Source: Sphingobium faniae
Lineage (GTDB): Bacteria > Pseudomonadota > Alphaproteobacteria > Sphingomonadales > Sphingomonadaceae
DNA length: 64,000 nucleotides
Direction: 5' to 3'
Assembly (NCBI GenBank): GCA_900100475.1
Contig: FMTU01000007.1
Span: 186,001-250,000 of the forward strand
Part shown: piece by piece, positions 47,112-64,000 of the stretch
Layout: every line of letters begins with the position of its first letter
Numbering within the stretch: position 1 is the stretch's first letter
Program-made: the position numbers and the translations under genes
Notes under the pieces: generated by a model
Databases searched by the model: none
Told to the model about the DNA's origin: nothing
What the model saw: only the letters and a program-made list of their open reading frames with translations

Positions 47112-48677
47112 TCAGATCATATGGGCACGATCAGCCCAATAGCGTTGCCGCAACTCCCGCTTCAACAGCTTGCCCATGGGGCTACGCGGCAGTTGCTCCA
47201 TAAAATCAACGGACTTCGGACATTTGTAAAGGGACAGGCGATTGCGGCAGAATTGAATGATCTCCTGCTCCATGCCGGGTTGACGGCCAATTCCCGCGCG
47301 CAACTGCACCACGGCCCTGACCTGTTCGCCCATATCCTCGTCAGGCACGCCTATGACGGCGACATCCTCTATGAGTTCATGCTCGATCAGAATATTTTCT
47401 ACTTCCTGGGGATAGATATTCACGCCTCCCACAATGATCATGTGACTTTCGCGGTCGGTCAAATAGAGGAAACCCGCTTCATCGAGATAGCCTATATCGC
47501 CCAATGAGGCGAAGCCGTCGTCGTCATACAGCAGGTCAGACTTCGCCGCATCGTCATGATAGGAAATGCGCAAGCCGTTGGACATCATGATCCGTCCCAC
47601 TTGCCCTGGCGCCAGCGCCCGCCCCTGCTCATCAACGATCTTGATCCGACAATTCGCCGCCGGACGGCCGACCGATCCGGGATGGTCCAGCCATTCCGCC
47701 GAATTGATGAAGCTATGGCCGAAAGCTTCCGTGCCGGCATAAAGTTCGTCGATCACAGGACCCCACCATTCGATCATGCGCCGTTTCAAGGCAATCGAAC
47801 ATGGCGCTGCGGCGTGGATGGCGTGCCGCAAGGAACCAGTATCGACCTGGCAGCGAATATCATCGGGCAGGGCCGACATGCGGCCGAACATGGTCGGAAC
47901 GAAAAAGCCGTGCGTCACCCGATAATCCTGGATCGCCCGGAGAACCGGTTCAGGCGCGAATTTTTCGAAAGCGACGATCGTACCGCCCGCCCGCAGGACG
48001 GACATCATGAACCGGTTGGGCGCGGCGTGATAGAAGGGGCCGGGATTGAGGAAGACGCTATCGTCTCCCAATCCATATTGCGCGCGCAGCATCGCGAACC
48101 GCTGGGGCGGTTCCTCGGGCGGCGCGTCGGGCAATATCGTCTTCACCCCCTTGGGCCGCCCCGTCGTGCCCGAGGAATATAGCATGGACGGACCGCGCCG
48201 ACGCGCGCCTGCGATTCTATGGCCGGGAAATGTCGGCAGGATCGCGTCCAGATCGGCGAAATCGCATGTGCTTCCACCCAGCATGTAAAGGACTGGCTTA
48301 TTCTCCAGCCGTTCGACGACCAACTGCGACAGATCCTTCAGCCCATGATCCGCGACCAGCAGCTTCGCTCCGCTATCCCTGACGATGTAAGCGGCGTCAT
48401 CGGGATTGAGATGGGTGGAAATGCACACATAGCGAATGCCGCTGTCCTTCGCGCCCCAGATCAACTCGGGATAGCGTGTGCTGTTGCCCAGAAGGAAGGC
48501 GACCGTTTCGCCTTCCTTCACGCCAGCCTTTTCAAACAGGTGCCCGACGCGATTGGCCTGGGCGACCAACGTCGCATAATCGACGGTCGCGCCGCTATCG
48601 GCCATGATGATCGCGGCCTTGCCCGGATGATCGCGGGCCACCTCCGAAGGATGCTGATAGAGGGGCGCGTCCGACAT
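47112..48677 (-). CDS. AMP-dependent acyl-CoA ligase
   Basis: A 521-residue adenylate-forming enzyme, last gene of a four-gene minus unit. It has the P-loop YSSGTTGRPKGVK, ELYAGTEAFGHSF, ASLGDIGYLDEAGFLYLTDR with the conserved Asp, and the C-terminal Lys region SPMGKLLKRELR. It activates a carboxylic acid to CoA via AMP. The cluster's oxidations would generate acids for it. The substrate pocket gives no clear specificity by eye. Confidence 0.92.
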   Translation of the reverse strand: MSDAPLYQHPSEVARDHPGKAAIIMADSGATVDYATLVAQANRVGHLFEKAGVKEGETVAFLLGNSTRYPELIWGAKDSGIRYVCISTHLNPDDAAYIVRDSGAKLLVADHGLKDLSQLVVERLENKPVLYMLGGSTCDFADLDAILPTFPGHRIAGARRRGPSMLYSSGTTGRPKGVKTILPDAPPEEPPQRFAMLRAQYGLGDDSVFLNPGPFYHAAPNRFMMSVLRAGGTIVAFEKFAPEPVLRAIQDYRVTHGFFVPTMFGRMSALPDDIRCQVDTGSLRHAIHAAAPCSIALKRRMIEWWGPVIDELYAGTEAFGHSFINSAEWLDHPGSVGRPAANCRIKIVDEQGRALAPGQVGRIMMSNGLRISYHDDAAKSDLLYDDDGFASLGDIGYLDEAGFLYLTDRESHMIIVGGVNIYPQEVENILIEHELIEDVAVIGVPDEDMGEQVRAVVQLRAGIGRQPGMEQEIIQFCRNRLSLYKCPKSVDFMEQLPRSPMGKLLKRELRQRYWADRAHMI

Positions 48678-48695
48678 TGTGCCTTCTTGCGATCC

Positions 48696-49700
48696 CTAAC
48701 CTCGCGCGCCGGAAAAACCTCTTTCCGCCCACGCCTTCCCTACTTCGCCGTTCCAGTGAATGACAGAACCTTCATCGAACATCAGGCTGATGTCGAGCGA
48801 CTTGGCACGGCCCGCGCACGTATCATAGGGATGAACCATCGCCGTGGGCACCGTTGCGAACGATGGGTCGAAATCGACGACCATCTCTCCCAGTTCGCTG
48901 TCAACCACCAGGCGATGGCCCTTCATCCAGCCATTTTCCTTGGTGGCGAATTGCGTTTCGCGAACGGTCGCCGGATAAATCCGCTCATCCTGAAAGACCG
49001 CGGCGTTGGACATGCCAAGGGAGCCATCCTCCGCGCGCATCATATAGACATAAAATCCCCGGCCGCTGGGGAAGATGCCGTTCAGCCAGTTATGCCCCGC
49101 ATATTTGCTGACATCACGAACACCGCGACTGTGATCGCGAATGGCATAGCCGTCGGATATGGTGAAAGACTGTTCGCCATAGGATATCGTGCCGGCGAAT
49201 TTGCAGATCTGATCGATATGCATTGATCCCGCCATTGTTTGCGCCTGGAGCGAATTTCCCTTCATGTTCCAGACCGGCGCGATGCCTTCCAGCCTGAAGT
49301 CGAAGACGCACCGTTCCGAAGCCGTGATCTGCGGCCCGTTCTCGATCAGGTCGACCGCCGTCGATTTGACCATCGGCCCATCGAACCGCAAAATCGCCTG
49401 TTGCCCCGGTTCGGTCACTTCATAATGCGACAGGCCGCCGCTGACGGAACGGTCCGTGCTGGTGCGGCCATAGCCGCGATGGAAGGCCACCGTGCCGTCA
49501 GGAAAGGTTGCCAGAATATTCTCGCGCCAGAGCATGGGATCGCTGTGCCAGCGGCCAATGCTGTAGAAGAGGCTTGTCTTCGTTTCGAAACATGCCAGGC
49601 CAACGAAGAAATTTTCGCTCCACCATTTGGTGGAGGGTATGTCCTTCATCGGATATTCGTCGGGAATATAGGCTTGCTGCACGTCGTGGCCTTCCTTCAT
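48696..49700 (-). CDS. RDHS-motif protein (DUF7064/7065-like), copy 1
   Basis: A 334-residue protein from ATG 49700. It is largely beta (SLFYSIGRWHSDPMLWRENI, AVFQDERIYPATVRETQF) with the signature IRDHSRGVRDVSKYAG and FPSGRGFYVYMMRAEDGS. It is closely related to the product at 59591 (both share DIPS-KWWSENFF and GYAIRDHSRGVRD) and more distantly to 54962-56008. The fold recalls lipocalin-like AttH/CrtC-type proteins. Members are uncharacterised and I use DUF7064/7065 as a tentative family name. No function is known. Confidence 0.7.
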   Translation of the reverse strand: MKEGHDVQQAYIPDEYPMKDIPSTKWWSENFFVGLACFETKTSLFYSIGRWHSDPMLWRENILATFPDGTVAFHRGYGRTSTDRSVSGGLSHYEVTEPGQQAILRFDGPMVKSTAVDLIENGPQITASERCVFDFRLEGIAPVWNMKGNSLQAQTMAGSMHIDQICKFAGTISYGEQSFTISDGYAIRDHSRGVRDVSKYAGHNWLNGIFPSGRGFYVYMMRAEDGSLGMSNAAVFQDERIYPATVRETQFATKENGWMKGHRLVVDSELGEMVVDFDPSFATVPTAMVHPYDTCAGRAKSLDISLMFDEGSVIHWNGEVGKAWAERGFSGARG

Positions 49701-49705
49701 CCTGA

Positions 49706-49915
49706 TTATTTGCCCCGCCGGAACAACAATGTCAGCAGGAACAGAACCGTCTTGACATCGAGCAGCTTGAGGGCCGCGCGCGCCTGATCGGGGGACAGAA
49801 CCGCCTGGATCGGCAGAGCGCCCATGATCCGTCCCTCGATCACCAGATCATCGCCTTCGACCCGCAACGCCTTGACATCCATCAGCGAGTCATTGTCGAT
49901 CGTTCGCAGTTGCAT
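49706..49915 (-). CDS. Small hypothetical protein (69 aa)
   Basis: A 69-residue minus-strand protein from ATG 49915 preceded by AAGGA. It has VEGDDLVIEGRIMGALPIQA, then a C-terminal hydrophobic stretch and basic tail (KTVLFLLTLLFRRGK). It lies between the membrane gene and the RDHS gene with 5-bp gaps, so it is co-transcribed. Could bind the membrane by its tail. No family recognised. Confidence 0.65.
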   Translation of the reverse strand: MQLRTIDNDSLMDVKALRVEGDDLVIEGRIMGALPIQAVLSPDQARAALKLLDVKTVLFLLTLLFRRGK

Positions 49916-49920
49916 GATCC

Positions 49921-50709
49921 TTAGCCTTTCGTTTGCGCCAGCCGGACGTTCGCCGTCGCCAGTTGCGAAGCGATCCACCACATGATCATGGCGAGCAGGA
50001 TAGTGGCAACGCCCCCCGCTTCCATCACCGTTCTCGACACTGACGCATTCATGACATTGAAGAGAATGAAATTGGTCCCGAAATGGCCCATCAGCGTGCC
50101 CATGGTCGTCAATACGGGAACGAGAAGCTGACGAACCCCCGTGAGTTGCGGCAGGAGAAAGGCGATCAGCGACGCCCCGAACAGTTCGGCGCTGGAATTC
50201 ATGAACGACCATGTCAGCGGGGCCGTCGCCTTCCAGATCCACAGCGGCGCGGGTTCGAAATACGCCCACAGGCCGGTGCTGACGCCGACGATCTCACCGA
50301 AATAATAGCAGGTGACAGTGATCGCGCCGGTTTTCCAGATCAGGCTGCGGCGGATCGTTCCGGCCATCGCCTGCCTGTAGATAATCAGATAGACAACGCC
50401 GAAGCCGAAAGTGTAGCCCAGCGCGATATGCCAGGGAATGGTGCGATCGACCGCACTGAACAGGGCGATGCTGCCACCGGACGGATGGGTGACATGGCCC
50501 AGATAGCCGACCAGCGTTTCAAGGATGATGGAGGTGAAGGCGCCGATGACCAGCAGCGGCGGGACGAGCGAGCCGTCGCGGCGCGCCATCTTCAGCGAAT
50601 ACAGGAACACTGAAGCGGCCAACACCAGAGTCACCCAGAAAAAAATCGTCTGCAATGGTTCCGGCATCTGTAAGATCGGCGCCTGCGCGATCTGGCTTGT
50701 CACTCCCAT
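49921..50709 (-). CDS. Polytopic membrane protein
   Basis: A 262-residue protein; ATG 50709 is preferred because GGGGAG lies 7 bases upstream; the frame also has an ATG at 50724. At least six hydrophobic segments are visible (IFFWVTLVLAASVFLYSL, VIGAFTSIILETLVGYLG, IALGYTFGFGVVYLIIY, ITVTCYYFGEIVGVSTG, LFGASLIAFLLPQL, VATILLAMIMWWIASQL). No transporter or enzyme motif is certain. Heading the four-gene minus unit, it may move a pathway intermediate. Divergent from the phosphatase gene at 50841. Confidence 0.7.
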   Translation of the reverse strand: MGVTSQIAQAPILQMPEPLQTIFFWVTLVLAASVFLYSLKMARRDGSLVPPLLVIGAFTSIILETLVGYLGHVTHPSGGSIALFSAVDRTIPWHIALGYTFGFGVVYLIIYRQAMAGTIRRSLIWKTGAITVTCYYFGEIVGVSTGLWAYFEPAPLWIWKATAPLTWSFMNSSAELFGASLIAFLLPQLTGVRQLLVPVLTTMGTLMGHFGTNFILFNVMNASVSRTVMEAGGVATILLAMIMWWIASQLATANVRLAQTKG

Positions 50710-50840
50710 CACCCTACTCCCCATTCATATCGGCATTGAGCCATGAAGCAAAAAAGCCACTTTCGGCTTGTCTTGAATATATTGGACAACAGACGCACTA
50801 TACGCAAGCGATCAATTCCGGTTTTGAAAAGAGGTGAAGA

Positions 50841-51635
50841 ATGGCTGCTTCGTTGCTGCCGATCAAAGGCGCGAGAAATCTGCGGGATATGGGTGGTTTA
50901 CGCAGTCTGGATGGACGCGTCCTGCGTCATGGGATGCTGTTCCGTTCGGGGAGCCTGCATGAGATAGAGGCCGAATCGGCCGATGCCCTGGCCGCCCTTG
51001 GGTTGCAGACCATCTGCGATTTTCGCGCCCCCGACGAACGGCTGGATCAACCCACGCCCCTCGTCGGCGATCTTGTCGAGATCGTGTCGTGGGACGATGC
51101 CCAGGATCTGACCCATAGGGGGCTGGCCGAGGGCGAGATGCGCACGCGCGAAGACGGGCGCAGGGCCGTGATGAAGATCTACGAACAATTGCCGGTGCTG
51201 CATCTGGAGAAATATCGCGTCATGTTCGAACGGCTGGTCGCGGGCAAAGTCCCCATGCTGTTCCATTGTGCCGCGGGCAAGGACCGGACGGGCATCGCCG
51301 CCGCCCTGATCCTCGAAGCGATCGGGGTTTCCCGGTCGGATATATTGGAGGATTATGCCGCCTCGGAAAAACTCGTCCATTATCTGAGCCTGTTCCGCAA
51401 GGATGCGCAGCGCAATCCGCGGTCGGTCGTCGCCCGCTATCTGCAAAAGCCCGAATCCTTTGTGTCGGCCGTGCTGTCTTCCGATCCGGCATATCTGGAC
51501 CATGGACTGGCTTCGATCGCGGACCGATGGGGTTCGACGGAAGCCTATCTGGAACGGGAGATGCGGCTGGACGCGGAACGCAAGGAACGCTTGCGCGACA
51601 TTCTTCTCGAAGAGGCGGCGGCATCGAAAAATTGA
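50841..51635 (+). CDS. Tyrosine-phosphatase-family protein
   Basis: A 264-residue cysteine phosphatase after AGAGGTGAAG. It begins with IKGARNLRDMGGLRSLDGRV, the start motif of bacterial Tyr/Ser phosphatases (Y_phosphatase3). The P-loop HCAAGKDRTG puts the nucleophilic Cys at 143 and Arg at 149. DFRAPDERLDQP provides the usual Arg/Asp region. These enzymes hydrolyse phosphate from proteins, phosphoinositides or small molecules. Its neighbour is an APH-type kinase, which suggests opposing phosphorylation and dephosphorylation of a pathway compound. That is inference. Confidence 0.88.
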   Translation: MAASLLPIKGARNLRDMGGLRSLDGRVLRHGMLFRSGSLHEIEAESADALAALGLQTICDFRAPDERLDQPTPLVGDLVEIVSWDDAQDLTHRGLAEGEMRTREDGRRAVMKIYEQLPVLHLEKYRVMFERLVAGKVPMLFHCAAGKDRTGIAAALILEAIGVSRSDILEDYAASEKLVHYLSLFRKDAQRNPRSVVARYLQKPESFVSAVLSSDPAYLDHGLASIADRWGSTEAYLEREMRLDAERKERLRDILLEEAAASKN

Positions 51636-51636
51636 T

Positions 51637-52944
51637 ATGAAAATGAAAGAAGAGAAGATGGAGAGCCAAAACGCTCGCGAAAGCAGAAATGGAGGGCACG
51701 ACGACGCCCTCGCCCTGCTGGCCGCCGTCCAGTCCCTTCTGACCAGGGTGCAGGCCGAAGAGGGCGACCGACTGTCGCGAGAAAACACGGACCTGTTGAG
51801 GCGCGCCACTGCGGGGCTCGGCTGGGTTCGCGCGACCTGGGGCGGGCATGACGACCCCGCCCTTTCGACCGATACGCCGCTGGAACGGGAACATCGGGCG
51901 CGGCAACATCTGGCGCGCCATGTGTCGGGCGATGAACTGAAACCGGATTCCGCGCGGCAAACCGACATTCCGCGTCCAGCGCCGACGGCGCAAGCTCTCA
52001 CGGCCGCGATATGCGCAAGCACGGGCCATCCCGTCGCCATAGAATCGATCGCGCCGATCTGGACCGAGACATCCAAGGAAATCTTCGCCGTCGCCTGCTC
52101 GGCGCCCGGATGGCCGCGCGAGGCCATATTGCGCAGGGAACCGCCGATCGCCGTCGTCGCCACTTCGCTGGTCGATGAATATGACGTGCTGCAACTGGCG
52201 CATGACGCCGGACTGCCTGTCCCCCGCCCCCTGTTCGCCGAGGCCGACCCGAATGTTCTCGAAGGGCGCGTCCTGCTGCTGGAGCGCGTCCATGGTCAGG
52301 CACAGGGGGTTGCCAAGATCGGCGCGGCGGGTCCGGCGATCGCGGCGGATATGGCCGCTTTCCTTGCCCGGTTGCATGCGCTGGACCCGAACCAGGTGCC
52401 CCGCCTGCGGAGCGACGGCCAGTCCATCGCGGATCGGCTGGCCCAGAACATCGCAAAAGCACGGGAGGACTGCGCCATGGGGGACCAGTCGCCCCTCGTC
52501 ATGGCGGCCTTCGACTGGCTGGACGCCCATTTCGACGAATGCGTGACGGAGGTCCCCGCCATCGTTCACGGCGATTTCGACCTGCGCAACATTCTCATAG
52601 AAAATGGCCGGTTGTCGGCGGTTCTGGATTGGGAATTGTCGGTCCGCGGCCATCCCGCGCAGGATCTTGGCTATGCCTGGCCCCATGTCACGCAGATCAG
52701 CCAATGGGACGATTTCATGGCGGCCTACAGAGCTGCCGGAGGTCGTCCCATCCCACTTCGGCAGGTGCTGTTCTTCGCCATCTGGTCGCAACTTTGGCGA
52801 ATCGCGGTGATCGTGCCGCTGTGGCGCGCCTTCTACCGGGGCGAACATGCGGTGCTGCTGCTGGGCAGCCTGCGCTATCTGGAACAGCAGGTCTATCTTG
52901 ACGATCTGGCGCGGGCCTTCAATGTGGCGACGAGCCTGGACTGA
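51637..52944 (+). CDS. APH-type small-molecule kinase (copy 1)
   Basis: A 435-residue protein; starts at ATG 51637 or 51658 are both plausible. Residues 1-130 are helical and unusual for aminoglycoside kinases. The APH kinase domain follows: VDEYDVLQLAHDAGLPVPRP, the Brenner box HGDFDLRN (304-311 from the later start), and DWE (324-326), with an HPAQDLGYAW stretch after. Homologues beside lipid or terpenoid catabolic genes are related to ACAD10/11-type kinases, which phosphorylate hydroxyacyl groups rather than antibiotics. A resistance role is unlikely in this context. Confidence 0.85.
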   Translation: MKMKEEKMESQNARESRNGGHDDALALLAAVQSLLTRVQAEEGDRLSRENTDLLRRATAGLGWVRATWGGHDDPALSTDTPLEREHRARQHLARHVSGDELKPDSARQTDIPRPAPTAQALTAAICASTGHPVAIESIAPIWTETSKEIFAVACSAPGWPREAILRREPPIAVVATSLVDEYDVLQLAHDAGLPVPRPLFAEADPNVLEGRVLLLERVHGQAQGVAKIGAAGPAIAADMAAFLARLHALDPNQVPRLRSDGQSIADRLAQNIAKAREDCAMGDQSPLVMAAFDWLDAHFDECVTEVPAIVHGDFDLRNILIENGRLSAVLDWELSVRGHPAQDLGYAWPHVTQISQWDDFMAAYRAAGGRPIPLRQVLFFAIWSQLWRIAVIVPLWRAFYRGEHAVLLLGSLRYLEQQVYLDDLARAFNVATSLD

Positions 52945-53072: not shown

Positions 53073-54464
53073 ATGGATTATGATTATCGCACCGGCTTTG
53101 TGAGCTATCCCGATGCAGAACCGGGCAGCCCGGCCGCCAAGGCGCCCTTTGTCGACATGGGAACGGGCAGGATCGATCCCAGCCGCTACTGGTCGAAGGA
53201 AGAGGCCGACCTGGAATGGGATCATATGTGGACCAAGGCCTGGTGGTTCGCGGGCCTCGCCCACGACATCCCCAATGTGGGCGACTATTTCAAGGTCGAC
53301 CATGGCCGCGAATCCTTCATCGTCGTGCGGACCGGCGAAGGCGCTGACGAGATCGCCGCTTATTACAATGTCTGCCCGCACCGCGGCAACCGGATCGCGC
53401 ATGGCGATTTTGGCGCGGTATCGGACGATGGCTGTTTCCGCTGCGACTTTCATGGCTGGCGTTTCGGGCTGGACGGATCGAATGTCGAAATTCGCGACGA
53501 GATTATTTTCCGGCCCGAAGTGATCGCGCATCGGCCGGGCCTCAAGGCGGCGCGTTGCGGGGTATGGAACAGCCTGATCTTCATCAGCATGGCGGAAGAC
53601 GGACCGTCGTTGATGGAGCAACTGGATGTGATGCCCGAACATCTGAAAGCCTATCCTTTCGACAAATACCGGGTTCTGCGCGACATCCAGGTTTGCTGGG
53701 ACGCCAATTGGAAGACCGCGCTGGATGCTTTCGTCGAATTCTACCATGCCGACGATGTCCATCCCGAGGTGCTGCCTTTCTCCGAAACGCTGGAATGTCA
53801 GTATGACCTGTACGACCATGGGCTGAGCCGCATGGTGATCGCGCTCGGCTATGTCACCAACAGGTTCGAGGATCGGGTGACGGTGCCCGAGGGGCTGAAG
53901 ATGTTCCTTGCCTTTTTCGGCGGCAATCCGGCGGATTTCGAAGGGCTTCCCGGCAAGGACTATGCCCAGGCGCTGGCGAAGGTGAAGCGGGACTGGGCCA
54001 AGCGCCACGGCTACGATCATTTCGACAATCTGAGCGACGCGCAGGTCACGGACGACTGGAATTATTTCGTCTTCCCGAACATCACCATCAATGTGTTCAG
54101 CGATGCGCTGCTGATCCAGGTCTTCCGCCCGCATCCGACCGACCCGGAAAAGAGCATCTATCGCGCCATTTCGCTATGCCTGCCGGTGCCCGACACGCAG
54201 GAAATGGTCATGGACCCCGGCTCCTTCGGTCCTGAAGCGATTTCCGAGCCGGGCTGGGACGGCGCCGTCCGTCCGCCCATCGAGCAGCCGATCAATGTCG
54301 AGGATTTCGGTTCGGTCCTCTCGCAGGACGCCCGGCGCGTGCCCGAAGTGCAGAAGGGCCTGCGCTCCCGCGCCTTCAAGGGCTATGTCCTGTCGGAATC
54401 GGAAGTGCGCATCCGCCACTATCTGGCGGAGGTCGACCGCTATATCGGTCGCCCGACAGCCTGA
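53073..54464 (+). CDS. Rieske-type aromatic ring-hydroxylating oxygenase alpha subunit
   Basis: A 463-residue protein. The Rieske cluster is C101-x-H103 (YNVCPHRGNRI) and C124-x2-H127 (CFRCDFHGWRFG). The mononuclear iron site includes H225 and H230 in AFVEFYHADDVHPEV. Such oxygenases use O2 and electrons from a separate reductase to hydroxylate or demethylate rings. The small (beta) subunit, ferredoxin and reductase are not in the window, so it may be an alpha-only enzyme of the kind acting on terpenoids, steroids or side chains. The stop overlaps the SMR gene start. Confidence 0.93.
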   Translation: MDYDYRTGFVSYPDAEPGSPAAKAPFVDMGTGRIDPSRYWSKEEADLEWDHMWTKAWWFAGLAHDIPNVGDYFKVDHGRESFIVVRTGEGADEIAAYYNVCPHRGNRIAHGDFGAVSDDGCFRCDFHGWRFGLDGSNVEIRDEIIFRPEVIAHRPGLKAARCGVWNSLIFISMAEDGPSLMEQLDVMPEHLKAYPFDKYRVLRDIQVCWDANWKTALDAFVEFYHADDVHPEVLPFSETLECQYDLYDHGLSRMVIALGYVTNRFEDRVTVPEGLKMFLAFFGGNPADFEGLPGKDYAQALAKVKRDWAKRHGYDHFDNLSDAQVTDDWNYFVFPNITINVFSDALLIQVFRPHPTDPEKSIYRAISLCLPVPDTQEMVMDPGSFGPEAISEPGWDGAVRPPIEQPINVEDFGSVLSQDARRVPEVQKGLRSRAFKGYVLSESEVRIRHYLAEVDRYIGRPTA

Positions 54465-54814
54465 TGGACAACGGTTCGTCGACAGGATTGTCCGCAAGGG
54501 CAATCCTGCTGTTCATCGGCCTGATCGCGACCCAGATCGCGGCGGTATCCATGCTTCCGAAGACGGACGGCTTTGCCAGTCTTCGCTGGACGGGCGCATG
54601 TTTGGGAACCTATGCGCTGTCCTTCTGGATCATGTCGACCATCATCCGGGAAGGACAGCCGCTGGGCCTGCTGGTGCCGTTGATGTCGGCGGTGATCCCC
54701 ATCGCCACCATCATCGTGGGAACGTTGGTCTATCATGAACCGGCGTCGATGCTGCGTATCGGGTTGCTTGTGGCGGCCTGTATCCTGGTGTCGGTGGCGA
54801 CCGTCGTTTCCTAG
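54464..54814 (+). CDS. SMR/EamA-like small membrane transporter
   Basis: A 116-residue protein, ATG overlapping the Rieske gene stop (TGATGG). It has four membrane segments (AILLFIGLIATQIAAVSML, GTYALSFWIMSTII, LGLLVPLMSAVIPIATIIVG, IGLLVAACILVSVATVV). The Y-H-E-P near the third loop is typical of small multidrug resistance/EmrE-like proteins. It might export a toxic intermediate. Its TAG stop falls inside the start of a repeat element at 54811. Confidence 0.75.
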   Translation: MDNGSSTGLSARAILLFIGLIATQIAAVSMLPKTDGFASLRWTGACLGTYALSFWIMSTIIREGQPLGLLVPLMSAVIPIATIIVGTLVYHEPASMLRIGLLVAACILVSVATVVS

Positions 54815-54917: not shown

Positions 54918-54963
54918 GGCGGATCGACTTTCAGTTCTGACGGCCTGAATGTCGATTGGCCCT
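54916..54963. repeat. Adjacent 48-bp stem-loop
   Basis: AGGGCGGATCGAC (54916-54928) pairs with GTCGATTGGCCCT (54951-54963) at 11 of 13 positions, and an inner TTCAG/CTGAA pair extends it. It overlaps the end of the minus-strand gene at 54962. Possible bidirectional terminator or a second interspersed repeat. Confidence 0.6.
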
Positions 54964-56008
54964 AACGGCGCGGCCTCGCCAGGCTGGCCATCGGCGCGAT
55001 GCGCTCGCGCACGCCGAAGCCGATTTCATCGCCGCAACGGATGCGGAGCAGGGATTCGGTCCACTGCAAGGCTCCCACGGCCGAAAAGTCCGTGCCGGGC
55101 TCTTCCGTCGCCGGCGGATAAAAGGTGAGAGCGGCGGAATGAAGCAGTTCGCCGGTCATGCGCAATTCTTCGCCGCCCACGTTGATGGCGACATCCATGT
55201 TGCCCGCGCGGGGGTCGTCCATCGGATCGGCTGGAAAACTGCCGGGCATCGCGCTGGCGCCTGGCACGGCGGGATGGATCGTCACATGGCCCAGTTGGAG
55301 CATGTCCGACCGGGATGATGCGACATAGGCGGCATTGGTCACGCTGTTCTGCAATTGAACCACCTGTGCCATGACCGCCCGGCCGCTCGGGAAGAGGGCG
55401 GAAATCCAGAAATCGCCTTCCACCAGCGCATAGTCGCGCGGTCCACAGCTATGGTCGCGAACGCACATGCCGGAAAAGGCGAGCGTCGGCGCATCGCATT
55501 GGAACCTGCCCCGCGCGCGCCCGATCTGCTGGTGATGCATGTGGGAATAGCTGTCCGCATCGCCCACGCTGGAGCGCAGATCCCACAGCGGGATCACGCC
55601 TTGCCATTCAAGGTCGAACATCAGCGGAACCGGCGTGCCCCCGCGATGCGGGCCTTGCATATTGTCCCGCCGATGCACCTTGTCGGCCGTTCCGGTAAAG
55701 GCGACCCGCCACAGGCGCGCGTCCTCCACGATCTCCACGACAAGACCGGCCAGCTCCAGCCGGCGGTCCGACGTCTGGCGTCCTTCGACCATGGCAATGG
55801 CGATCTCGTCATCCGGCAGATAGGCCACCACGGATGCCCGCCACCGATCGAGATCATCGACGCATCGCCCCACATGCAGGCTCACGGCGCGCTGGCTGGC
55901 TTCGTCCATGGCGAAGAAATAGAGATATTCTGTCCAAAGCGGTTCACTGGAGAGCGGCTGAAACCGCTCTTCGATCCGCGCCGCCAGCACCCTAGCACGG
56001 ATCGACAT
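54962..56008 (-). CDS. RDHS-motif protein (DUF7064/7065-like), copy 3 (divergent)
   Basis: A 348-residue protein from ATG 56008. A beta-rich fold is suggested. Signature segments are SGMCVRDHSCGPRDYALVEG and FWISALFPSGRAVMAQVVQL, matching the RDHS-x-G-x-R-D and FPSGR blocks of the two closer paralogs. The N-terminal 130 residues differ from them. It is co-directional with the flavoprotein gene upstream (87-bp gap). Three such proteins in 12 kb suggest successive or specialised steps in the same pathway. Function unknown. Confidence 0.65.
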   Translation of the reverse strand: MSIRARVLAARIEERFQPLSSEPLWTEYLYFFAMDEASQRAVSLHVGRCVDDLDRWRASVVAYLPDDEIAIAMVEGRQTSDRRLELAGLVVEIVEDARLWRVAFTGTADKVHRRDNMQGPHRGGTPVPLMFDLEWQGVIPLWDLRSSVGDADSYSHMHHQQIGRARGRFQCDAPTLAFSGMCVRDHSCGPRDYALVEGDFWISALFPSGRAVMAQVVQLQNSVTNAAYVASSRSDMLQLGHVTIHPAVPGASAMPGSFPADPMDDPRAGNMDVAINVGGEELRMTGELLHSAALTFYPPATEEPGTDFSAVGALQWTESLLRIRCGDEIGFGVRERIAPMASLARPRR

Positions 56009-56095: not shown

Positions 56096-57655
56096 CTAGC
56101 CGATAAAAACTCCTTCCCGTTCAAGCCCCATATCCGCGAACATTTGCAAAGCGGTCGCCCGTCCGCCCAATATGATCGTCCCGCCGGGATGCATGAAGGG
56201 ACCGCACAGATAGAGGCCCTCGGCCCCTGGCACCCGGTAGTTCGCCAGTTCCGGTATCGGCCGCATGCCGAACATCTGGCCGGCGTCCATCGCAATGCCC
56301 ACCGTATCGCCGTTCTTGAGCGAAGGCGACCAGGCGGCATGGTCGGCGGGCGTCACCACGGTCCGGGAAAGGATCTGGTCGATATCCAGATTGCTCATGT
56401 GCGCGAATATCTTTGCCAGCACCCTGTCGGCGAATTCCGACTTGATGTCGTCCCAGGTGGCCCCAGCCGGTTCGAACGGGACGAAATTATAGGCATAAAG
56501 CGTCGCATGCCCTTCCGGAGCGCGCGTGGGATCGAAGTTCGACTGAATATAAATGATCGGGTCCAACTCGGTCGGCATGTCTCCGTACCGATATCCGCTA
56601 TGATTGCGCAGGAAGGTTTTCGGGTCGCGGTCCAGCAGGCACACATTCATCGCATCGTCGAAAGCGGTCCCCGCATGATAACTCGGCGTCGTGGGCAGCG
56701 TACAATGGATGTTGAAGGAGCCATATTGGCTCAGCCGCACGGAAGCGCAGCGCTGCACCAGAGCTTCCGAAACTCCCGGCACCATGCTGCCCAGATCCCA
56801 GGGGTGGATCGACGCGACCACGGCCCGGCGCGCCCGGATCGTTTCGCCGTCGCTGGTCAGCACACCGACGGCACGCCCCCCTTCGACCAGGATTTTGTCC
56901 ACCGTCACCCCATAGCGAATGGAGCCGCCATGCTGCTCCAGGCAAGCGCCGAGCGCATCCGACAGCTTTTGCAGCCCGCCGACCACGGCGCCCGTCGGAT
57001 AGCTGTGCGCGAGCGCCAGGAACAGATAGAGGACGAGTCCCGTACCATTTGTATCGGCGGATTGCGCGGTCTCGGGACAACGGGCCAGATGCGTTCGCAC
57101 CGCGTCATTCTCGAACCGCTGGCGGACGATATCGTAAATGCTGCTGTGATAGAGGGACAGCAAGTGGCGGCCCTGCTCCGTTGAATCCAGCCCGGCGATA
57201 AAGCTCCCGTAGGGAACCGGCGGTTCGAACAGAGCCTGCCGCAAGATGGGCCAGATCGCCAGCGCCTCTCCCACCAGTGCGCGATAGGCTTCCGCATCCC
57301 TGGTCGAAAACCGTGCGATGCTTTCGCAACTCGCATCCAGGTCGCGATAGGTGATCAGCCCGCTGCCATCCTCGAAGATGGTCGCATAGGGTTTGTCCGA
57401 CCAGGCGATTTCCAGCCCATGCCGGGAGAAGAGGTCCAGTTCATCGTCGGCGATGATGGGGTTGGCCGCCCCGGTCACGATGGCCGTCGCAATGGTGTCC
57501 TGAATATAGCCTTCGGGGTTGTCGTGGGAGACGACGCATCCTCCCAGCCGGTCATTTTTCTCCAGCACGCATACGCCAAGACCTGCCTTGCCCAGATAAG
57601 CAGCAGCGGAAAGCGTATTGCTGCCACCGCCGACCACAATTACGTCTGCATCCAT
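56096..57655 (-). CDS. FAD-dependent oxidoreductase, phytoene-desaturase-like
   Basis: A 519-residue flavoprotein from ATG 57655 after GGGAG. The dinucleotide motif is VIVVGGGSNTLSAAAYLGKAG, then CVLEKNDRLGGCV. The second half has the C-terminal FAD segment GLYLCGPFMHPGGTIILGGR, which matches phytoene desaturase/crtI-like and NAD(P)-binding proteins. These remove hydrogens from isoprenoid or related hydrophobic chains, consistent with a terpenoid- or steroid-like substrate. It forms a minus unit with the RDHS copy downstream. Confidence 0.88.
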   Translation of the reverse strand: MDADVIVVGGGSNTLSAAAYLGKAGLGVCVLEKNDRLGGCVVSHDNPEGYIQDTIATAIVTGAANPIIADDELDLFSRHGLEIAWSDKPYATIFEDGSGLITYRDLDASCESIARFSTRDAEAYRALVGEALAIWPILRQALFEPPVPYGSFIAGLDSTEQGRHLLSLYHSSIYDIVRQRFENDAVRTHLARCPETAQSADTNGTGLVLYLFLALAHSYPTGAVVGGLQKLSDALGACLEQHGGSIRYGVTVDKILVEGGRAVGVLTSDGETIRARRAVVASIHPWDLGSMVPGVSEALVQRCASVRLSQYGSFNIHCTLPTTPSYHAGTAFDDAMNVCLLDRDPKTFLRNHSGYRYGDMPTELDPIIYIQSNFDPTRAPEGHATLYAYNFVPFEPAGATWDDIKSEFADRVLAKIFAHMSNLDIDQILSRTVVTPADHAAWSPSLKNGDTVGIAMDAGQMFGMRPIPELANYRVPGAEGLYLCGPFMHPGGTIILGGRATALQMFADMGLEREGVFIG

Positions 57656-58086: not shown

Positions 58087-59556
58087 ATGAGCATGACGAT
58101 TTTGCCTTCTTCCGATCGAATATTGCGGGGCATGCGCACAAGCCTCGCGCGCATCCGCAAGACAGAAGCCATCAGCGATTTTGCGCGCGACACTCTGCGT
58201 GTCACCGACGCCATGCTTGGCGAAATCCTGCAACGGCAAGACAGCGATTTCTACCTATCCACCTATCTGCAAGGCCGTGCCCTGCTGGAGGGATGGAACG
58301 CCGCTTCCGCGCCTTCCGGGCAGGTGGCGCTTCAGGATTTACCTTCCACGGTGCCTCCCCACACCTGTTATCAGCAACTCGGCGTCTGGCTTGGCATCAT
58401 CTCCACGCGTCTTGCCGACACGATCCGCGCCGTTGAGGATCTGGACGGCGAATATGTTCAACAGGTGGTGGCGTGGGAGGAAGCGCTCTACGGTCACAGG
58501 CTGAAAGCCGCGCCTGAGCCAGAGGCGGCTGACGCACCCACGCCGCGGATAGAGCGGGATTCACTGGCGCTCTATCTTGAGGCCCGCGGGCTGACGCTGC
58601 TGGATTTCCGGCGGATCGTCGGCGGCTATCAAAAGGATACGCTGCTCTTCAGGGCGAAGGACGATAGCGGGCTGGAACGGGATTATGTGATCCGTGCCGA
58701 TAAGCCGGACCGTTTCGTCAATCTGGACGCCGGGTCCATCCGGGATGAATATGAGATCGTTCGCCGGGTTCACGCGGCGGGCATTCCCACCGCCAAGCCT
58801 CTCTGGCTTGAGTCCGATGCGGCGCGGTTGGGAATGCCCTTCATGGTTTCGGACCGCGTGAAGGGCGTCACGCCGGGCGCGGTAAACCACCCGCATGAGA
58901 TGACCGAGGGCGAGTTACGGTCGATCGCGGAAACCCTGGCCGATATTCATCTGATTCCGATAGATCGCTTCGCGGGAACCTGCGTCGAACATTGGGGCGC
59001 ACGGGCGACTCTGGGCGAGAACAGTCGAGCCGCCGTCGAGATGTGGCCGCGCCAGCCCTGGGCGCAGGCGATGACGCCTTCGCCGACTGCGACCTCCATG
59101 CTGGAGTGGCTGCGTCGCAACGTACCGACGAGCGACCGCGCGCCCGCATTGGTTCACACCGACTATGCGCCCTATAATCTGATGCTCCATGAAGGGCGTG
59201 TTGCCGCCGTACTGGATTGGGAAGGTTCCCGGATTGGAGATCCGATGGAGGATCTGTCATTCCTGTTGCAATGCCTGGGCCATCGGGCCGATCCTGACAA
59301 GATAAAGCAATACTATTCCGAACGCATAGGGTCATCGATCGACGAAGACGCCTTGCGCTACTTCGACGTCTATAACAGCATGAAATATGTTCTGGGCGGA
59401 TTCTTTGCAGGCACTTTGTACGAAAAGGACGAAAGCTCGGCTATTCAATGGGGCTATCTGTCGCTTTACTCATCGTGGCACGGCATGATCATCCATGACA
59501 GGCGTTTGAAGTCCATCCACAGACATGAAAGCCAGTCAGCCGCTGCCCAGTGCTGA
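58087..59556 (+). CDS. APH-type small-molecule kinase (copy 2)
   Basis: A 489-residue protein from ATG 58087 after AAGGAGGAG. A helical N-terminal domain of about 160 residues is followed by the kinase domain: SIRDEYEIVRRVHAAGIPTA, HTDYAPYN (357-364) and DWE (377-379), with IGDPMEDLSFLLQCL. Compared with copy 1, the Brenner box is HTDYAPYN rather than HGDFDLRN. The long N-terminal domain is shared in concept but not in sequence by eye. It leads the plus unit with an RDHS protein and an epoxide-hydrolase-like gene. Confidence 0.85.
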   Translation: MSMTILPSSDRILRGMRTSLARIRKTEAISDFARDTLRVTDAMLGEILQRQDSDFYLSTYLQGRALLEGWNAASAPSGQVALQDLPSTVPPHTCYQQLGVWLGIISTRLADTIRAVEDLDGEYVQQVVAWEEALYGHRLKAAPEPEAADAPTPRIERDSLALYLEARGLTLLDFRRIVGGYQKDTLLFRAKDDSGLERDYVIRADKPDRFVNLDAGSIRDEYEIVRRVHAAGIPTAKPLWLESDAARLGMPFMVSDRVKGVTPGAVNHPHEMTEGELRSIAETLADIHLIPIDRFAGTCVEHWGARATLGENSRAAVEMWPRQPWAQAMTPSPTATSMLEWLRRNVPTSDRAPALVHTDYAPYNLMLHEGRVAAVLDWEGSRIGDPMEDLSFLLQCLGHRADPDKIKQYYSERIGSSIDEDALRYFDVYNSMKYVLGGFFAGTLYEKDESSAIQWGYLSLYSSWHGMIIHDRRLKSIHRHESQSAAAQC

Positions 59557-59590: not shown

Positions 59591-60574
59591 ATGAACAAAG
59601 CCGACTTGCCTGATGAAAATCCGATCCAGGATATTCCGTCCGAAAAATGGTGGAGCGAAAATTTTTTCGCCGGCTTTGCCTGCCCTAGGACGCGAACCGC
59701 AATCTTCTACAGCATCGGCCGCTGGCACGCCGACCCCACCCTTTGGCGCGAATGCGTCCAGCTTTCGCTGCCGGACGGTACGCTTGCCTGGTTCAGGGGC
59801 TATGGACGGAACGGCACCGCCACGGCGGCCGGGGCGTCGGTATCCAGCTTTGAAATCGTCGAACCCGGCAATCGCATCCGCGTGACCTTTGACGGCCCGA
59901 TGATGAAGGCCAGACTATCCGACCTGATCGAACAGGGCGCGCCGGCAGGGCCAACGGTTCGATGCCGCTTCGATATCGGTTTCGAGGGCGTCTTGCCCGT
60001 GTGGAACCTGAACAGCGATACAGAGGAAGCCCGGACCATGGCGGGGGCCAGCCACATAGACCATGTTGGCGCGGCCAATGGAACCATCGAATTCGACGGC
60101 GCGCAGTACCCGCTGGTCGATGCCTATGCCATTCGCGATCATAGTCGGGGCGTTCGCGACCTGATCCGTTTCGAAGGCTCCGCCTGGCTGCATGGCGTCT
60201 TTCCGTCCGGCCGGGGCTTTTATGTCTACGCGATGAAATCGCCCGACGGGTCCATGGGGATGTCCAATGCGGCCATGGTCGCCGATGGCCACCTCTATCC
60301 GGCTGAAGTGGTCGCCATCGAGTTCCTGAACGATTTCCAGAGCTGGGGGAGTGTGCACACACTCGTCCTGCGGAGCGAGATCGGCGACATGACGATCGAG
60401 TTCACCGATGTCCTGGCGACCTTCGCCACGGGACTGATGACTCCCTGGGACATGTGCCCGGGCAAGGCGATGTATTCAGACATCGGACTGGTCTTCGACG
60501 AACCGATGCGGCTGAGGTCCGGTGGCGAGGAGGGGGTTGGCTGGTCGGAGCGAGGCGTCCCGCAAAACAGCTGA
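59591..60574 (+). CDS. RDHS-motif protein (DUF7064/7065-like), copy 2
   Basis: A 327-residue protein from ATG 59591 after AGGAGC; the frame starts earlier at 59525 but that part overlaps the kinase gene. It is very similar to copy 1: DIPSEKWWSENFFAGFACPR, FYSIGRWHADPTLWRECV, AIRDHSRGVRDLIRFEGS and FPSGRGFYVYAMKSPDGSMG. Paralogy suggests duplication within the cluster, one copy in each main unit. Located between kinase and epoxide-hydrolase-like genes. Confidence 0.72.
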   Translation: MNKADLPDENPIQDIPSEKWWSENFFAGFACPRTRTAIFYSIGRWHADPTLWRECVQLSLPDGTLAWFRGYGRNGTATAAGASVSSFEIVEPGNRIRVTFDGPMMKARLSDLIEQGAPAGPTVRCRFDIGFEGVLPVWNLNSDTEEARTMAGASHIDHVGAANGTIEFDGAQYPLVDAYAIRDHSRGVRDLIRFEGSAWLHGVFPSGRGFYVYAMKSPDGSMGMSNAAMVADGHLYPAEVVAIEFLNDFQSWGSVHTLVLRSEIGDMTIEFTDVLATFATGLMTPWDMCPGKAMYSDIGLVFDEPMRLRSGGEEGVGWSERGVPQNS

Positions 60575-60616
60575 CGCCATGGAGCCGGCCGGATCGCCGA
60601 TGCCATGGCCGAAAAA

Positions 60617-60636: not shown

Positions 60637-60659
60637 CAATCGAAACAAGGAGATAGGAC

Positions 60660-61067
60660 ATGTCTCAAGGCGATTCAGAAACGATTATCCGGAATTTCCT
60701 CACCGAATGGGCGAATGATGGCTGGATGGAGTCGTTCTCCAGATATATTCATCCGGACTGCGTCTGGCGGAACAGCGGGTTCCCCGACGTGGTCGGCAAG
60801 GAAGCGGTGATGACCTTGCTCACCGGCATGCTCGAAAAATTCGGCATCAAGGGCGCGAACGTCGAGGTGATCGCACTTGTCGCGAATGGCGATCGGGCCA
60901 TGGTCGAGCGGATCGACCATATGGTCGACCCCAGGGAAGGCGAACATTCGACCCCCACCATGGGCTCGTTCCGCCTGAAGGACGGATTGATCGTCTATTA
61001 TGCGGATTATTTCGATCCGACGCGCTATTTGCACGGCGTCGCGGACGCGACCAGCCAGCTTTCCTGA
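60660..61067 (+). CDS. Limonene-1,2-epoxide hydrolase-like protein
   Basis: A 135-residue NTF2-fold protein after AAGGAG. It has AMVERIDHMVDPREGEHSTP, then LIVYYADYFDPTRYLHG. The E-R-x-D and Y-x-D-Y-F-D pattern matches the Arg and two Asp residues of the limonene-1,2-epoxide hydrolase triad. Such enzymes hydrate small epoxides. Position after an RDHS protein and APH kinase suggests hydration or dehydration chemistry in this unit. The SnoaL family overlaps in fold, so a dehydratase is an alternative. Confidence 0.75.
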   Translation: MSQGDSETIIRNFLTEWANDGWMESFSRYIHPDCVWRNSGFPDVVGKEAVMTLLTGMLEKFGIKGANVEVIALVANGDRAMVERIDHMVDPREGEHSTPTMGSFRLKDGLIVYYADYFDPTRYLHGVADATSQLS

Positions 61068-61076
61068 CGGCCCCTG

Positions 61077-62408
61077 CTACCTCTGCCAGAGCCGGATGAT
61101 GGTATTGGCCACATCCTCCCCGCGCCTGGCGGAGGTTTCCTGGCTCGCCTTGCTGAACATGTCGCCCGCCACCTGGACCCGGCTGTCCTCGTTCAACCGC
61201 TCGACGAACTTTGCCGCCCGACGATAATAGCCGGGCGTATTCAGATGCCCGATATGCGGCCAGCGTTCGATATTGCTGACCCCATTGAAATGCCCGACAA
61301 GCTCCGGAAAATATTTCTCGACCTTCGCGCGCGCGAACCCGATCGCTTCCTCATCGGTCATCCGGGCCGCCTGCGGATAGAATTTCGAGTCCGTCTGGAC
61401 GTTGAAAAGGCTATGCCCCTCGGGCGCTCGATCCGGCGCCTTGTTGTGGTCGAGGAAGAGCAGGAAAATCTCGCTATCTTCGACGGTCGGCATTTGAATG
61501 GTCCACGCCTTGGTATCCGGCCGCCTTGAATAGCCCAGATGAACCTTGTTGGATCGCATATATTGGAGGTTATCGGCGAACTCCGCCGAAATATCCCGAA
61601 GTTTTGGATATATTCGGACTGCGTCCTTGTACATCAACGCCACGACGCAAGCCGCGCACTCTTCCTCGATCAGGTCGCCATCGGCATTGCGATAACGCAC
61701 GAGCGCACCATCTGCCTGCTCCTGCACGTCTTCGACGCGGCATTCGAACCGGATGGGCAGCATGTCCGCGAGCGTCTTCAGCAGCCGGTCAGCCCCGCCA
61801 AGGAACGTCCACACGCCGTCATCCGCAAAAGCAAGGCCCGCTGCGACATCGAGAATGGATGTAAGGTCCGCGCCGGTCGATTGCATGAGCCGCGACAATG
61901 GATCAATCATATAGTCTGTCGCTTCCGGGCCGAAATGACGCAGGCCATAGGATTCCGCCGATCTGTTGGGATCGTCGAGATGGGCCGACCTGTACAGGTA
62001 GCGGAAGTCGATGCCTTCCAGATCCGGGGCAATCTTCTTCATGCCCCGCTGCAGCTTCACTTTTGTCGCCAGCGAGAATGTGGATGTCATGGCGAGCGAT
62101 AACTTGCTCGCAACGTCCATATATTTGATCTTGCCACGGACCACCGTTCCCACCGTGCTCGATATCGGTGAAATCGCGCTGGCCAGCCCCACCTCTTTGG
62201 CCAGAGCGAGATAGCTATGATAGCCCGTCGAGTTGCCATCGGCGCCGACGTCCATGATATAGCCGTCCTGATGGCGCGACCAGACGCGCCCTCCGGCCCG
62301 GTCGGATGCTTCCAGCACCAGCACCTCGAAACCCGCCTGCTGCAAGCGGAATGCGGCAGTCAGACCGGCGGCCCCGGCGCCTATCACGATGATCTTATGA
62401 TCTTTCAT
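61077..62408 (-). CDS. FAD-dependent oxidoreductase (amine-oxidase/protoporphyrinogen-oxidase-like)
   Basis: A 443-residue flavoprotein from ATG 62408. The nucleotide motif is IIVIGAGAAGLTAAFRLQQAG, followed by VLEASDRAGGRVWS; the second half has VQVAGDMFSKASQETSARRG. It belongs to the amine-oxidase/phytoene-dehydrogenase superfamily but differs from the 56096 flavoprotein in length and motifs, so the two probably act at different points. It precedes the receptor gene on the same strand with a 136-bp gap. Confidence 0.85.
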   Translation of the reverse strand: MKDHKIIVIGAGAAGLTAAFRLQQAGFEVLVLEASDRAGGRVWSRHQDGYIMDVGADGNSTGYHSYLALAKEVGLASAISPISSTVGTVVRGKIKYMDVASKLSLAMTSTFSLATKVKLQRGMKKIAPDLEGIDFRYLYRSAHLDDPNRSAESYGLRHFGPEATDYMIDPLSRLMQSTGADLTSILDVAAGLAFADDGVWTFLGGADRLLKTLADMLPIRFECRVEDVQEQADGALVRYRNADGDLIEEECAACVVALMYKDAVRIYPKLRDISAEFADNLQYMRSNKVHLGYSRRPDTKAWTIQMPTVEDSEIFLLFLDHNKAPDRAPEGHSLFNVQTDSKFYPQAARMTDEEAIGFARAKVEKYFPELVGHFNGVSNIERWPHIGHLNTPGYYRRAAKFVERLNEDSRVQVAGDMFSKASQETSARRGEDVANTIIRLWQR

Positions 62409-62544
62409 AGCAATGCCGATCCTTCTTCCCCAGGATTCGCGTCAAAGCATCCTCCATTCCAGTGGCGCTCTTCGATGATGGTCCGGCACGTCTCCGATCA
62501 TGAAACTCCGCCGCGCCATGGAAGCGCGACGGAAGCCCCCGACT

Positions 62545-64000
62545 TCAGAATTTGGTTCTCAGGGTGACGCCGTACATGCGGGGATCGGCAGCGGTGATGA
62601 TGTCGCCGAGCTGGCCCGTGACCCCCTGCCCCAGATAATATTCGTCGAACAGATTGCGGACCCAAAGCGTGACGCCCAGACGCTCGTCCTTCGCGGTCCA
62701 CCCGATCGTCCCGTTGACCAGTGCATAGGCTTTTTGCCGCAGGCGGCCGGCGACATCGTCGAAGACAAACCCATCATTATAGTTGACGTTCGCCCCGATA
62801 TTGAAGTCACCGCCCATGCCGGGCCACATATAGTCGAACCCGGCGAAGCCCGTGAACTTGGGCGCCCTGACCGTATCGTAGCCCTTGGCGTTGTTGTTCG
62901 GGAACACCACAATGGAGCCATCGGCGCCGAAGGCGATCGGATTCAGGAAATCCTTGTATTTTCCGTCCAGAACCGCGCCGCCCGCGGTGAGCATGAGGCC
63001 CGTTGTCGGCGCAATGGTAAGCTCGAATTCACCGCCTTTGATACGGGCGGCGGCGGCATTGAACGTGGCGGTGAGCTGGTTTCGGACGGCCGAAACCTGA
63101 ATATCCTGATAATCATAATAGAACAGCGCGGCGTTGAAACGCACATGACGGTTGAAAAGATCGCTCTTCAGGCCGATTTCATACGCATCGAGGACTTCGG
63201 GCCGGAACCCGGCGCTCATTGGGTCGAGGAGGTCATAGCCCCCCGACTTCACGCCCCGGTTGTACGACGCATACACCTTTACGCCCGGCGTGACCGTTTG
63301 ATTGATCGCCGCGCGCCACGTCAACTTGTTGAAATCCTGCTTGCCGTCGGGAAAGTCGAACCCGTTGACAGCGCTCTTGCGCTTCTGCTTTTCGCTCGTA
63401 TAGCGCAAGCCGCCGGTGAGCTCGGTGCCGTCCATCACGGTCACGGTAGTCTGCCCGTAAACCGAAACCGAGTTGGTGCGCTGGCGGCCGTAAATGGACG
63501 CGGTGGTCAGCAGACCGGTGTCCGGGTCGGGAGTAGAGATATTGCCGTTATTATAGGCCGCCACGCTCTGATAGTAGAATGCGCCGACCTGCCAGTTGGC
63601 CCACTGGCTCGCCTCGCCGATAAGCTGTACTTCCTGAGACCAGTTGTTCGCGTAATAATAAAGATCGGCGACGACCAGGGGAAGATTGGTGGCGTCACGG
63701 TCAAAATAATATCGTCCCTTGCTCAGTCGGCGGGACGTGATGCTGACCAGTTTGGCGAACCCGACATCCTGTTCTATGGTGAGAGAAAGGCCGCGCCCTT
63801 TCGCCGTAATGATCGACGGCGTTTCGGCATCGGTGTCGTAGCGCCCATAATAGTGCGGCAGACCATCCGGACCCAGCGCGCCTTTCGGTAAATGATAACT
63901 CGTCTTGCTGTTCCGGTTATAACCATAATCGCCCGCGAGCGTGATCTCGGTCCCATCGGATGGCGTGAACAGCAATTTGGAACGAGCAGAAAACTCCCGC
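62545..64000 (-). CDS. TonB-dependent receptor, paralog; N-terminus outside window
   Basis: The barrel part of a TonB-dependent receptor whose start lies beyond the right edge; the frame is open to 64000. It shares extended blocks with the receptor at 44839: VYASYNRGVKSGGYDLLDP, EVLDAYEIGLKSDLF, DGFVFDDVAGRLRQ and QLGDIITAADPRMYGVT. By eye roughly 60% of positions agree. The conserved end LRTKF closes the barrel. The pair brackets most of the catabolic island on the outer sides, suggesting both import related substrates. Confidence 0.93.
   Translation of the reverse strand, partial: REFSARSKLLFTPSDGTEITLAGDYGYNRNSKTSYHLPKGALGPDGLPHYYGRYDTDAETPSIITAKGRGLSLTIEQDVGFAKLVSITSRRLSKGRYYFDRDATNLPLVVADLYYYANNWSQEVQLIGEASQWANWQVGAFYYQSVAAYNNGNISTPDPDTGLLTTASIYGRQRTNSVSVYGQTTVTVMDGTELTGGLRYTSEKQKRKSAVNGFDFPDGKQDFNKLTWRAAINQTVTPGVKVYASYNRGVKSGGYDLLDPMSAGFRPEVLDAYEIGLKSDLFNRHVRFNAALFYYDYQDIQVSAVRNQLTATFNAAAARIKGGEFELTIAPTTGLMLTAGGAVLDGKYKDFLNPIAFGADGSIVVFPNNNAKGYDTVRAPKFTGFAGFDYMWPGMGGDFNIGANVNYNDGFVFDDVAGRLRQKAYALVNGTIGWTAKDERLGVTLWVRNLFDEYYLGQGVTGQLGDIITAADPRMYGVTLRTKF

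Follow-up and report, generated by a model that had tools for sequence, protein, structure and literature searches.

A Sphingobium faniae gene island encoding predicted kinase and phosphoester-lyase pairs for ATP-dependent dehydration

Introduction

ATP-driven dehydration of alcohols has so far been described for sterol side chains in one anaerobe and for hydroxyacyl-CoAs. In Sterolibacterium denitrificans, the phosphoester of a tertiary steroid alcohol is made by 25-hydroxysteroid kinase (25-HSK) and converted to the delta-24 alkene by a distinct C–O lyase, which removes the phosphate (PMC8449060, PMC11061730); the surroundings of the kinase gene showed no candidate for the lyase, and a wasteful 26-phosphorylation has been noted for this system (PMC8449060). 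In the ACAD10/ACAD11 and LvaA/LvaC systems, elimination is performed by an acyl-CoA dehydrogenase and requires a CoA ester (PMC12440821). The Rv3168 and Rv3169 genes of Mycobacterium tuberculosis, which will be of importance below, form one operon repressed by Rv3167c (PMC5340868). Here we describe a gene island from Sphingobium faniae located in a 64,000-nucleotide stretch of contig FMTU01000007.1 (the window; positions are counted from its first letter), where kinases of the APH type recur together with three proteins named RDHS after their conserved R-D-H-S motif.

The island probably represents a multi-pair ATP-dependent dehydration module, in which a kinase would phosphorylate a hydroxyl group and an RDHS protein would eliminate the phosphate. 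Since the RDHS proteins and the kinases independently match 25-PSL (25-phosphosteroid lyase) and 25-HSK, ATP-dependent dehydration is the likeliest reaction for each pair. The resemblance to the 25-HSK/25-PSL system includes an APH-fold kinase and a calycin-fold lyase, fold and profile matches for both, and the RD[HR]S-x-G-x-R signature; in contrast to that system, the island bears several operon pairs together with a Rieske oxygenase, its kinases possess a helical N-terminus of about 150 residues, and sequence identity is low. The initial annotation had already proposed phosphorylation followed by elimination with RDHS proteins among the candidate lyases, an idea that finds strong support in the folds, the profile matches, and the genomic pairing. 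Its precedent, ACAD10/11, holds for the kinase, whose best profile match it is, but not for the elimination, which is carried out there by the acyl-CoA dehydrogenase domain. Likewise, the absence of a named pathway is true of the whole gene set, whereas the two-enzyme step does have a named precedent in 25-HSK/25-PSL.

RDHS proteins and their similarity to 25-phosphosteroid lyase

RDHS1 and RDHS2 share 48% identity, while RDHS3 is only about 22–26% identical to either. All three score below every Pfam cut-off, including that of AttH/CrtC, and give sub-threshold signals for DUF7064/DUF7065/2804 and for the Rv3169 family. The hidden Markov model of the latter (NCBIfam NF053593) yields weak, repeated matches to RDHS and DUF7064 proteins (19.5 bits for RDHS1, up to 37.6 for its relatives), every one of them below the 150-bit cut-off. 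Profile comparison with the DUF7064/DUF7065 proteins of the same genome, which carry the related motif RDRSW, indicates homology (hhalign probability 98.5); no literature on DUF7064 was found.

An AlphaFold (AF2) model of RDHS2, built from 13 natural homologs (mean pLDDT 87.3), is an all-beta double calycin of the AttH-like type. When this model was compared with 350,542 PDB chains, the best matches were three 25-PSL entries (9fzn, 9g2i, and 9g4c), which occupied the first five rows in Foldseek (E 1.6e-13) and the top three in VIA (Z 25.8, root-mean-square deviation 3.1, 284 residues aligned), ahead of AttH NE1406, fungal Diels-Alderases, and kievitone hydratase. Sequence alone also leads to 25-PSL: a profile built from 34 RDHS proteins reaches it with E 1.2e-14 in three collinear segments, placing R-D-H-S over R-D-R-S; this is the sole strong sequence-profile match of the family, AttH (2ich) appearing at E 0.067. 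The single RDHS2 sequence found no match in the PDB with phmmer; 25-PSL surfaced in the structural search and with wider profiles only.

In the 25-PSL entry that contains phosphate and desmost-1,4-diene-3-one, the motif reads R-N-R-S, with Asn at the position of the motif Asp, which suggests that catalysis depends on this Asp and that it was replaced to capture the complex; by analogy, the motif Asp of the RDHS proteins may be catalytic as well. The 25-PSL mechanism is taken here from the titles and sequences of PDB entries released in 2026. By fold and sequence profile, the RDHS proteins are most likely 25-PSL-like phosphate lyases.

The APH-type kinases

The best match of a profile built from 18 island-type kinases is the ACAD11 kinase domain (1e-47), followed by 3dxp, 9o56, Rv3168 (4e-29), and 25-HSK (9fsg, 6.8e-28). 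In the structural comparison of the APH2 model (pLDDT 80), Rv3168 is the top match (Z 25.1), with 3dxp (24.2) and substrate-bound 25-HSK (23.8) close behind. Thus, 25-HSK ties with Rv3168 and 3dxp by structure, whereas the ACAD11 kinase outranks it by profile. Both APH1 and APH2 retain the catalytic motifs HxDxxxxN and DWE. Their predicted helical N-terminus did not align to 25-HSK, and residues 9–136 of APH2 are left uncovered by the listed structural matches of the full model.

Pairing of RDHS and kinase genes

Of the 12 RDHS/DUF7064-like genes in the host genome, 10 have one of its 26 APH genes within 5 kb, the mean expectation being 0.54. Circular shifts, which retain gene clustering, reached this value in 41 of 100,000 trials over the whole genome (p about 4e-4); outside the island contig, the proximity is seen for six of eight genes, a value reached in 49 of 100,000 shifts. 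The proximity of RDHS and kinase genes in this genome is not due to chance.

Among 29 loci outside the host, some of which are mutually close relatives, the two genes adjoin each other on the same strand (overlapping or less than 100 bp apart) in nine, a kinase is situated within 540 bp of RDHS in 11, and it is found anywhere in a stretch of about 20 kb in 15. These co-occurrence counts represent a small sample because the contig scan used strict peptide patterns and gave nine loci. Direct pairs occur in Alphaproteobacteria, Gammaproteobacteria, and Actinobacteria (Arthrobacter, Granulicoccus). The distances among RDHS proteins correlate with those among their kinases (r 0.72, 15 pairs, 0 of 20,000 permutations), also after removal of close pairs (r 0.35, 461 of 20,000 permutations). 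One Mycobacterium and one Pseudomonas (loci L034 and L035) share a cassette of kinase, small protein, and RDHS, with 63% identity for RDHS and 52% for the kinase, suggesting transfer across phyla.

Within the island, the sequences look like two cognate sets, APH2 with RDHS2/RDHS1 and APH1 with RDHS3. The members of the second set are apart in the window, yet they look cognate because both group in trees with an adjacent pair from another locus, L065 (99/99 for the kinase and 96/92 for RDHS).

Of the external RDHS proteins in the alignment, the 14 whose locus includes a kinase all retain the motif Asp, while five of the 11 without one have lost it. The latter five (L066, L067, L068, L069, and L072) bear RI, RV, or RG instead, with no kinase within about 10 kb, and may catalyse another reaction.

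Objections and alternative explanations

Several observations weigh against the proposed phosphorylation and elimination. RDHS2 and 25-PSL are only 12% identical over the structural alignment, and Diels-Alderases and a hydratase have the same double-calycin fold (Z 22.6–24 in VIA), so that the fold alone does not settle the reaction. As to gene arrangement, RDHS1 is placed with the ligase and does not adjoin a kinase, and RDHS3 is encoded on the strand opposite to APH1. Roughly every second external RDHS locus is without a kinase in about 10 kb, loci with intact motifs among them (L036, L054, L058, and L060). The correlation between Asp loss and kinase loss is confounded by relatedness and can be regarded as suggestive only because four of the five Asp-less proteins form one clade.

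The common fold and the many RDHS relatives without a nearby kinase are compatible with RDHS proteins being hydratases or cyclases similar to AttH, CrtC, kievitone hydratase, or Diels-Alderases that involve no phosphoester, with the kinases serving a parallel step or detoxification. This explanation seems rather improbable: both structure searches put 25-PSL at the top, it alone matches the sequence profile strongly, and RDHS genes pair with kinase genes and diverge in a correlated way.

We give similarly little credence to a mechanism of the ACAD10/11 (LvaA) type, where the kinases would act on hydroxyacyl-CoA, an acyl-CoA dehydrogenase encoded elsewhere would perform the elimination, and RDHS would be a hydratase, a carrier, or something else. 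Common to both readings is the phosphorylation, by an APH-type kinase, of a hydroxyl destined for elimination; besides the profile rank of ACAD11, the presence of an acyl-CoA ligase in the island and of a kinase beside an acyl-CoA dehydrogenase on host contig C59 speak for such a mechanism. However, no acyl-CoA dehydrogenase, either kinase-fused or adjacent, has been recognised among the annotated genes of 47–64 kb, and the recurrent neighbour of the kinase in distant phyla is RDHS, to which a phosphate lyase is the nearest relative of solved structure.

An antibiotic-resistance or detoxification island, with APH kinases inactivating a toxic natural product and other genes modifying or exporting it, is brought to mind by the family name and the small multidrug-resistance (SMR)-like gene at 54464, but it is very improbable and was rejected, as the kinases score at most 46 bits against NCBIfam resistance-family cut-offs of 205 and more, antibiotic kinases match the kinase profile at 2e-14 or weaker, far below ACAD11, Rv3168, and 25-HSK, and the TonB receptors, the ligase, and the oxygenases are in keeping with catabolism.

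Extent and gene content of the island

The gene set described earlier for 47.1–64.0 kb is fully borne out, all its members being long open frames at the expected coordinates and, apart from the three RDHS proteins, falling into the anticipated Pfam/NCBIfam families (Table 1). The two flavoproteins had both been considered desaturase-like; this fits the CrtO/CrtI-like product of 56096–57655, while that of 61077–62408 is nearer to Amino_oxidase/PPO than to desaturases. The starts listed for APH1 (51637), APH2 (58087), and RDHS2 (59591) are likely revisions, leaving an intergenic gap of 34 bp between APH2 and RDHS2.

According to Pfam assignments, the island exceeds the span first recognised, with further genes upstream (36.4–47 kb) and beyond the window. 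Its left edge is probably near 36.4 kb, and its right side probably extends past the window; contiguity suggests that the upstream and downstream genes belong to a single functional island. The contig continues for 6.5 kb, comprising the remainder of TonB receptor 2, a divergent RDHS-like gene with three APH kinase genes in tandem behind it (L009:10906-16383, equal to G000:C61 250906-256383), and then the contig end, which brings the island kinases to five. A Hydrocarboniphaga locus with four kinases (L030) contains relatives of two of the three tandem kinases, APH4 and APH5.

Table 1. Features of the island in window coordinates.
Feature	Position	Strand	Evidence
GntR-family regulator, probable left island edge	36435..37805	-	Pfam GntR E 5e-16
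DapB-like dehydrogenase	38129-39244	+	Pfam; island membership suggested by contiguity
Two SnoaL_4 proteins	39269-39790, 39847-40356	+	Pfam; island membership suggested by contiguity
SDR	40938-41714	+	Pfam; island membership suggested by contiguity
PQQ-dependent alcohol dehydrogenase with cytochrome c domain	42614..44737	+	Pfam PQQ E 2e-70
TonB-dependent receptor 1	44839..46959	+	Pfam
Acyl-CoA ligase, AMP-binding, FadD4-like	47112..48677	-	Pfam E 2e-56; NCBIfam
RDHS1, predicted phosphoester lyase (25-PSL-like), RDHSRGVRD	48696..49700	-	Family profile to 25-PSL E 1.2e-14; 48% to RDHS2
Membrane protein without family assignment, recurrent in related loci	49921..50724	-	No Pfam match
PF13350 Cys-phosphatase (PtpB type; Y_phosphatase3)	50841..51635	+	Pfam E 3e-61; HCAAGKDRTG, CX5R visible
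APH1, predicted hydroxyl kinase, likely cognate of RDHS3 clade	51637..52944	+	Pfam APH; groups with L065 kinase 99/99
Rieske oxygenase alpha subunit	53073..54464	+	Pfam Rieske and Ring_hydroxyl_A
SMR-like membrane protein	54464..54814	+	Pfam E 9e-5, slightly below cut-off
RDHS3, divergent predicted phosphoester lyase, RDHSCGPRD	54962..56008	-	Groups with L065 RDHS 96/92
CrtO/CrtI-family flavoprotein	56096..57655	-	NCBIfam CrtO 179 bits (sub-threshold); homolog on Diaphorobacter plasmid 45% identical
APH2, predicted hydroxyl kinase, helical N-terminal domain	58087..59556	+	Pfam E 2e-30; AF2 model to Rv3168 Z 25.1, to 25-HSK Z 23.8
RDHS2, predicted phosphoester lyase, RDHSRGVRD	59591..60574	+	AF2 pLDDT 87; 25-PSL Z 25.8, Foldseek E 1.6e-13
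SnoaL-like protein	60660..61067	+	Pfam SnoaL_2 E 2e-13
Flavin amine-oxidase-type oxidoreductase	61077..62408	-	Pfam Amino_oxidase E 7e-43
TonB-dependent receptor 2, continues past window	62545..64000	-	Pfam; next on contig (L009 8545-16383) divergent RDHS-like gene and three APH kinases

The membrane protein at 49921-50724 has homologs in RDHS loci of Pseudomaricurvus (L028), Robiginitomaculum (L029, two copies), and Mycobacteroides (L036), and it possibly represents an enzyme family so far unrecognised. To the left of the island, an N-acetylmuramidase gene (33495-34187) is located near an open frame of 1435 amino acids (27347-31654), which points to a possible prophage there.

Occurrence in other genomes

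A moderately close RDHS protein is encoded by 15 of 94 genus members, and close relatives at E 1e-20, the host being counted, are present in four of 120 genomes of the family, five of 398 of the order, and one of 398 of the phylum. The exact 17-kb set was found in no relative among the genus, family, order, and phylum genomes searched. As regards the conservation of the set, it does not characterise the genus, being missing from nearly all genus members searched, but exists in reshuffled form in distant Proteobacteria. Thus, the Pseudomaricurvus locus comprises a TonB receptor, RDHS, two kinases, a CrtO-like protein, and a membrane protein of the 49921-50724 type; that of Robiginitomaculum, a ligase, a phosphatase, the membrane protein, a CrtO-like protein, RDHS, two kinases, and a TonB receptor; and that of Hydrocarboniphaga, a TonB receptor, RDHS, four kinases, and an amine-oxidase-like protein at 47%. 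On a Diaphorobacter plasmid, the genes for a Rieske protein, a kinase, a DUF7064-type protein, and an amine-oxidase-like flavoprotein follow one another in an order resembling that of the window, with a CrtO-like protein (45% identity) about 20 kb from this run. Such reshuffled versions in distant genomes suggest horizontal spread of a catabolic module.

The Hydrocarboniphaga locus also has an AveC-like spirocyclase gene (PF17198; L030:10519-11664) beside its four APH kinases and RDHS gene. A second, partly parallel cluster exists in the host (G000:C59 1-34000; L010 and L011), comprising APH kinases, RDHS, a DUF7064 protein, a ligase, a CrtO-like protein (46%), an amine-oxidase-like protein, and one kinase (C59:17548) beside an acyl-CoA dehydrogenase.

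Proposed pathway and substrate

Gene content, folds, homology, and genomic pairing are established by the analysis; the following substrate-specific catabolic route, including its reactions, catalytic residues, order of steps, and regiochemistry, is proposed by analogy. TonB receptors would import a bulky hydrophobic compound through the outer membrane, and the Rieske oxygenase, the CrtO-like and amine-oxidase-like flavoproteins, the PQQ-dependent alcohol dehydrogenase, and the SDR would install or oxidise functions. An APH-type kinase would then transfer a phosphate from ATP onto a hydroxyl that is a poor leaving group, at a tertiary or unactivated carbon, and the partner RDHS protein would expel the phosphate to give an alkene, presumably by means of the motif Asp together with conserved His, Gln, and Arg residues close to it. 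This dehydration module may be reused several times, with APH2 and RDHS2/RDHS1 as one cognate set and APH1 and RDHS3 as another; three more kinases are encoded beyond the window. A probable role of the Cys-phosphatase is to recycle dead-end esters arising from mis-phosphorylation, and the acyl-CoA ligase would channel the resulting acid into beta-oxidation.

A steroid- or terpenoid-like compound appears the likeliest substrate in view of the closest characterised relatives, the TonB-type uptake, the Rieske and CrtO-like enzymes, and a Sphingobium plasmid context; the alicyclic or terpenoid-like substrate of the initial annotation remains a surmise. The plasmid in question, from a tomato-associated Sphingobium, carries an RDHS relative with a kinase, a Rieske protein, and two flavoproteins similar to 3-ketosteroid dehydrogenase (KstD), and tomato-root Sphingobium related to the plasmid-bearing strain degrades steroid-type saponins (PMC10653915). 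The search of the host for a named steroid pathway with one-to-one counterparts yielded a KstD-like gene outside the island; as it scores 510 bits, below the 788-bit family cut-off, it is too little to call the host a steroid degrader.

Wider implications

On a broader and more tentative view, the RDHS, DUF7064/DUF7065, and Rv3169-type proteins may constitute one phosphoester-lyase superfamily that acts with neighbouring APH kinases in a general ATP-driven dehydration in aerobes, Rv3168-Rv3169 included; a kinase/phospholyase function is accordingly predicted for that operon. If this is true, the window stands at the extreme of such systems, as it has five kinases and at least two cognate pairs. 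A testable reaction can thus be offered for widespread hypothetical proteins of these families and for kinases annotated as resistance-like. It would suggest that ATP-driven dehydration is a common catabolic device of soil, marine, and rhizosphere bacteria and that some of the annotated aminoglycoside phosphotransferases may serve the catabolism of recalcitrant lipids.

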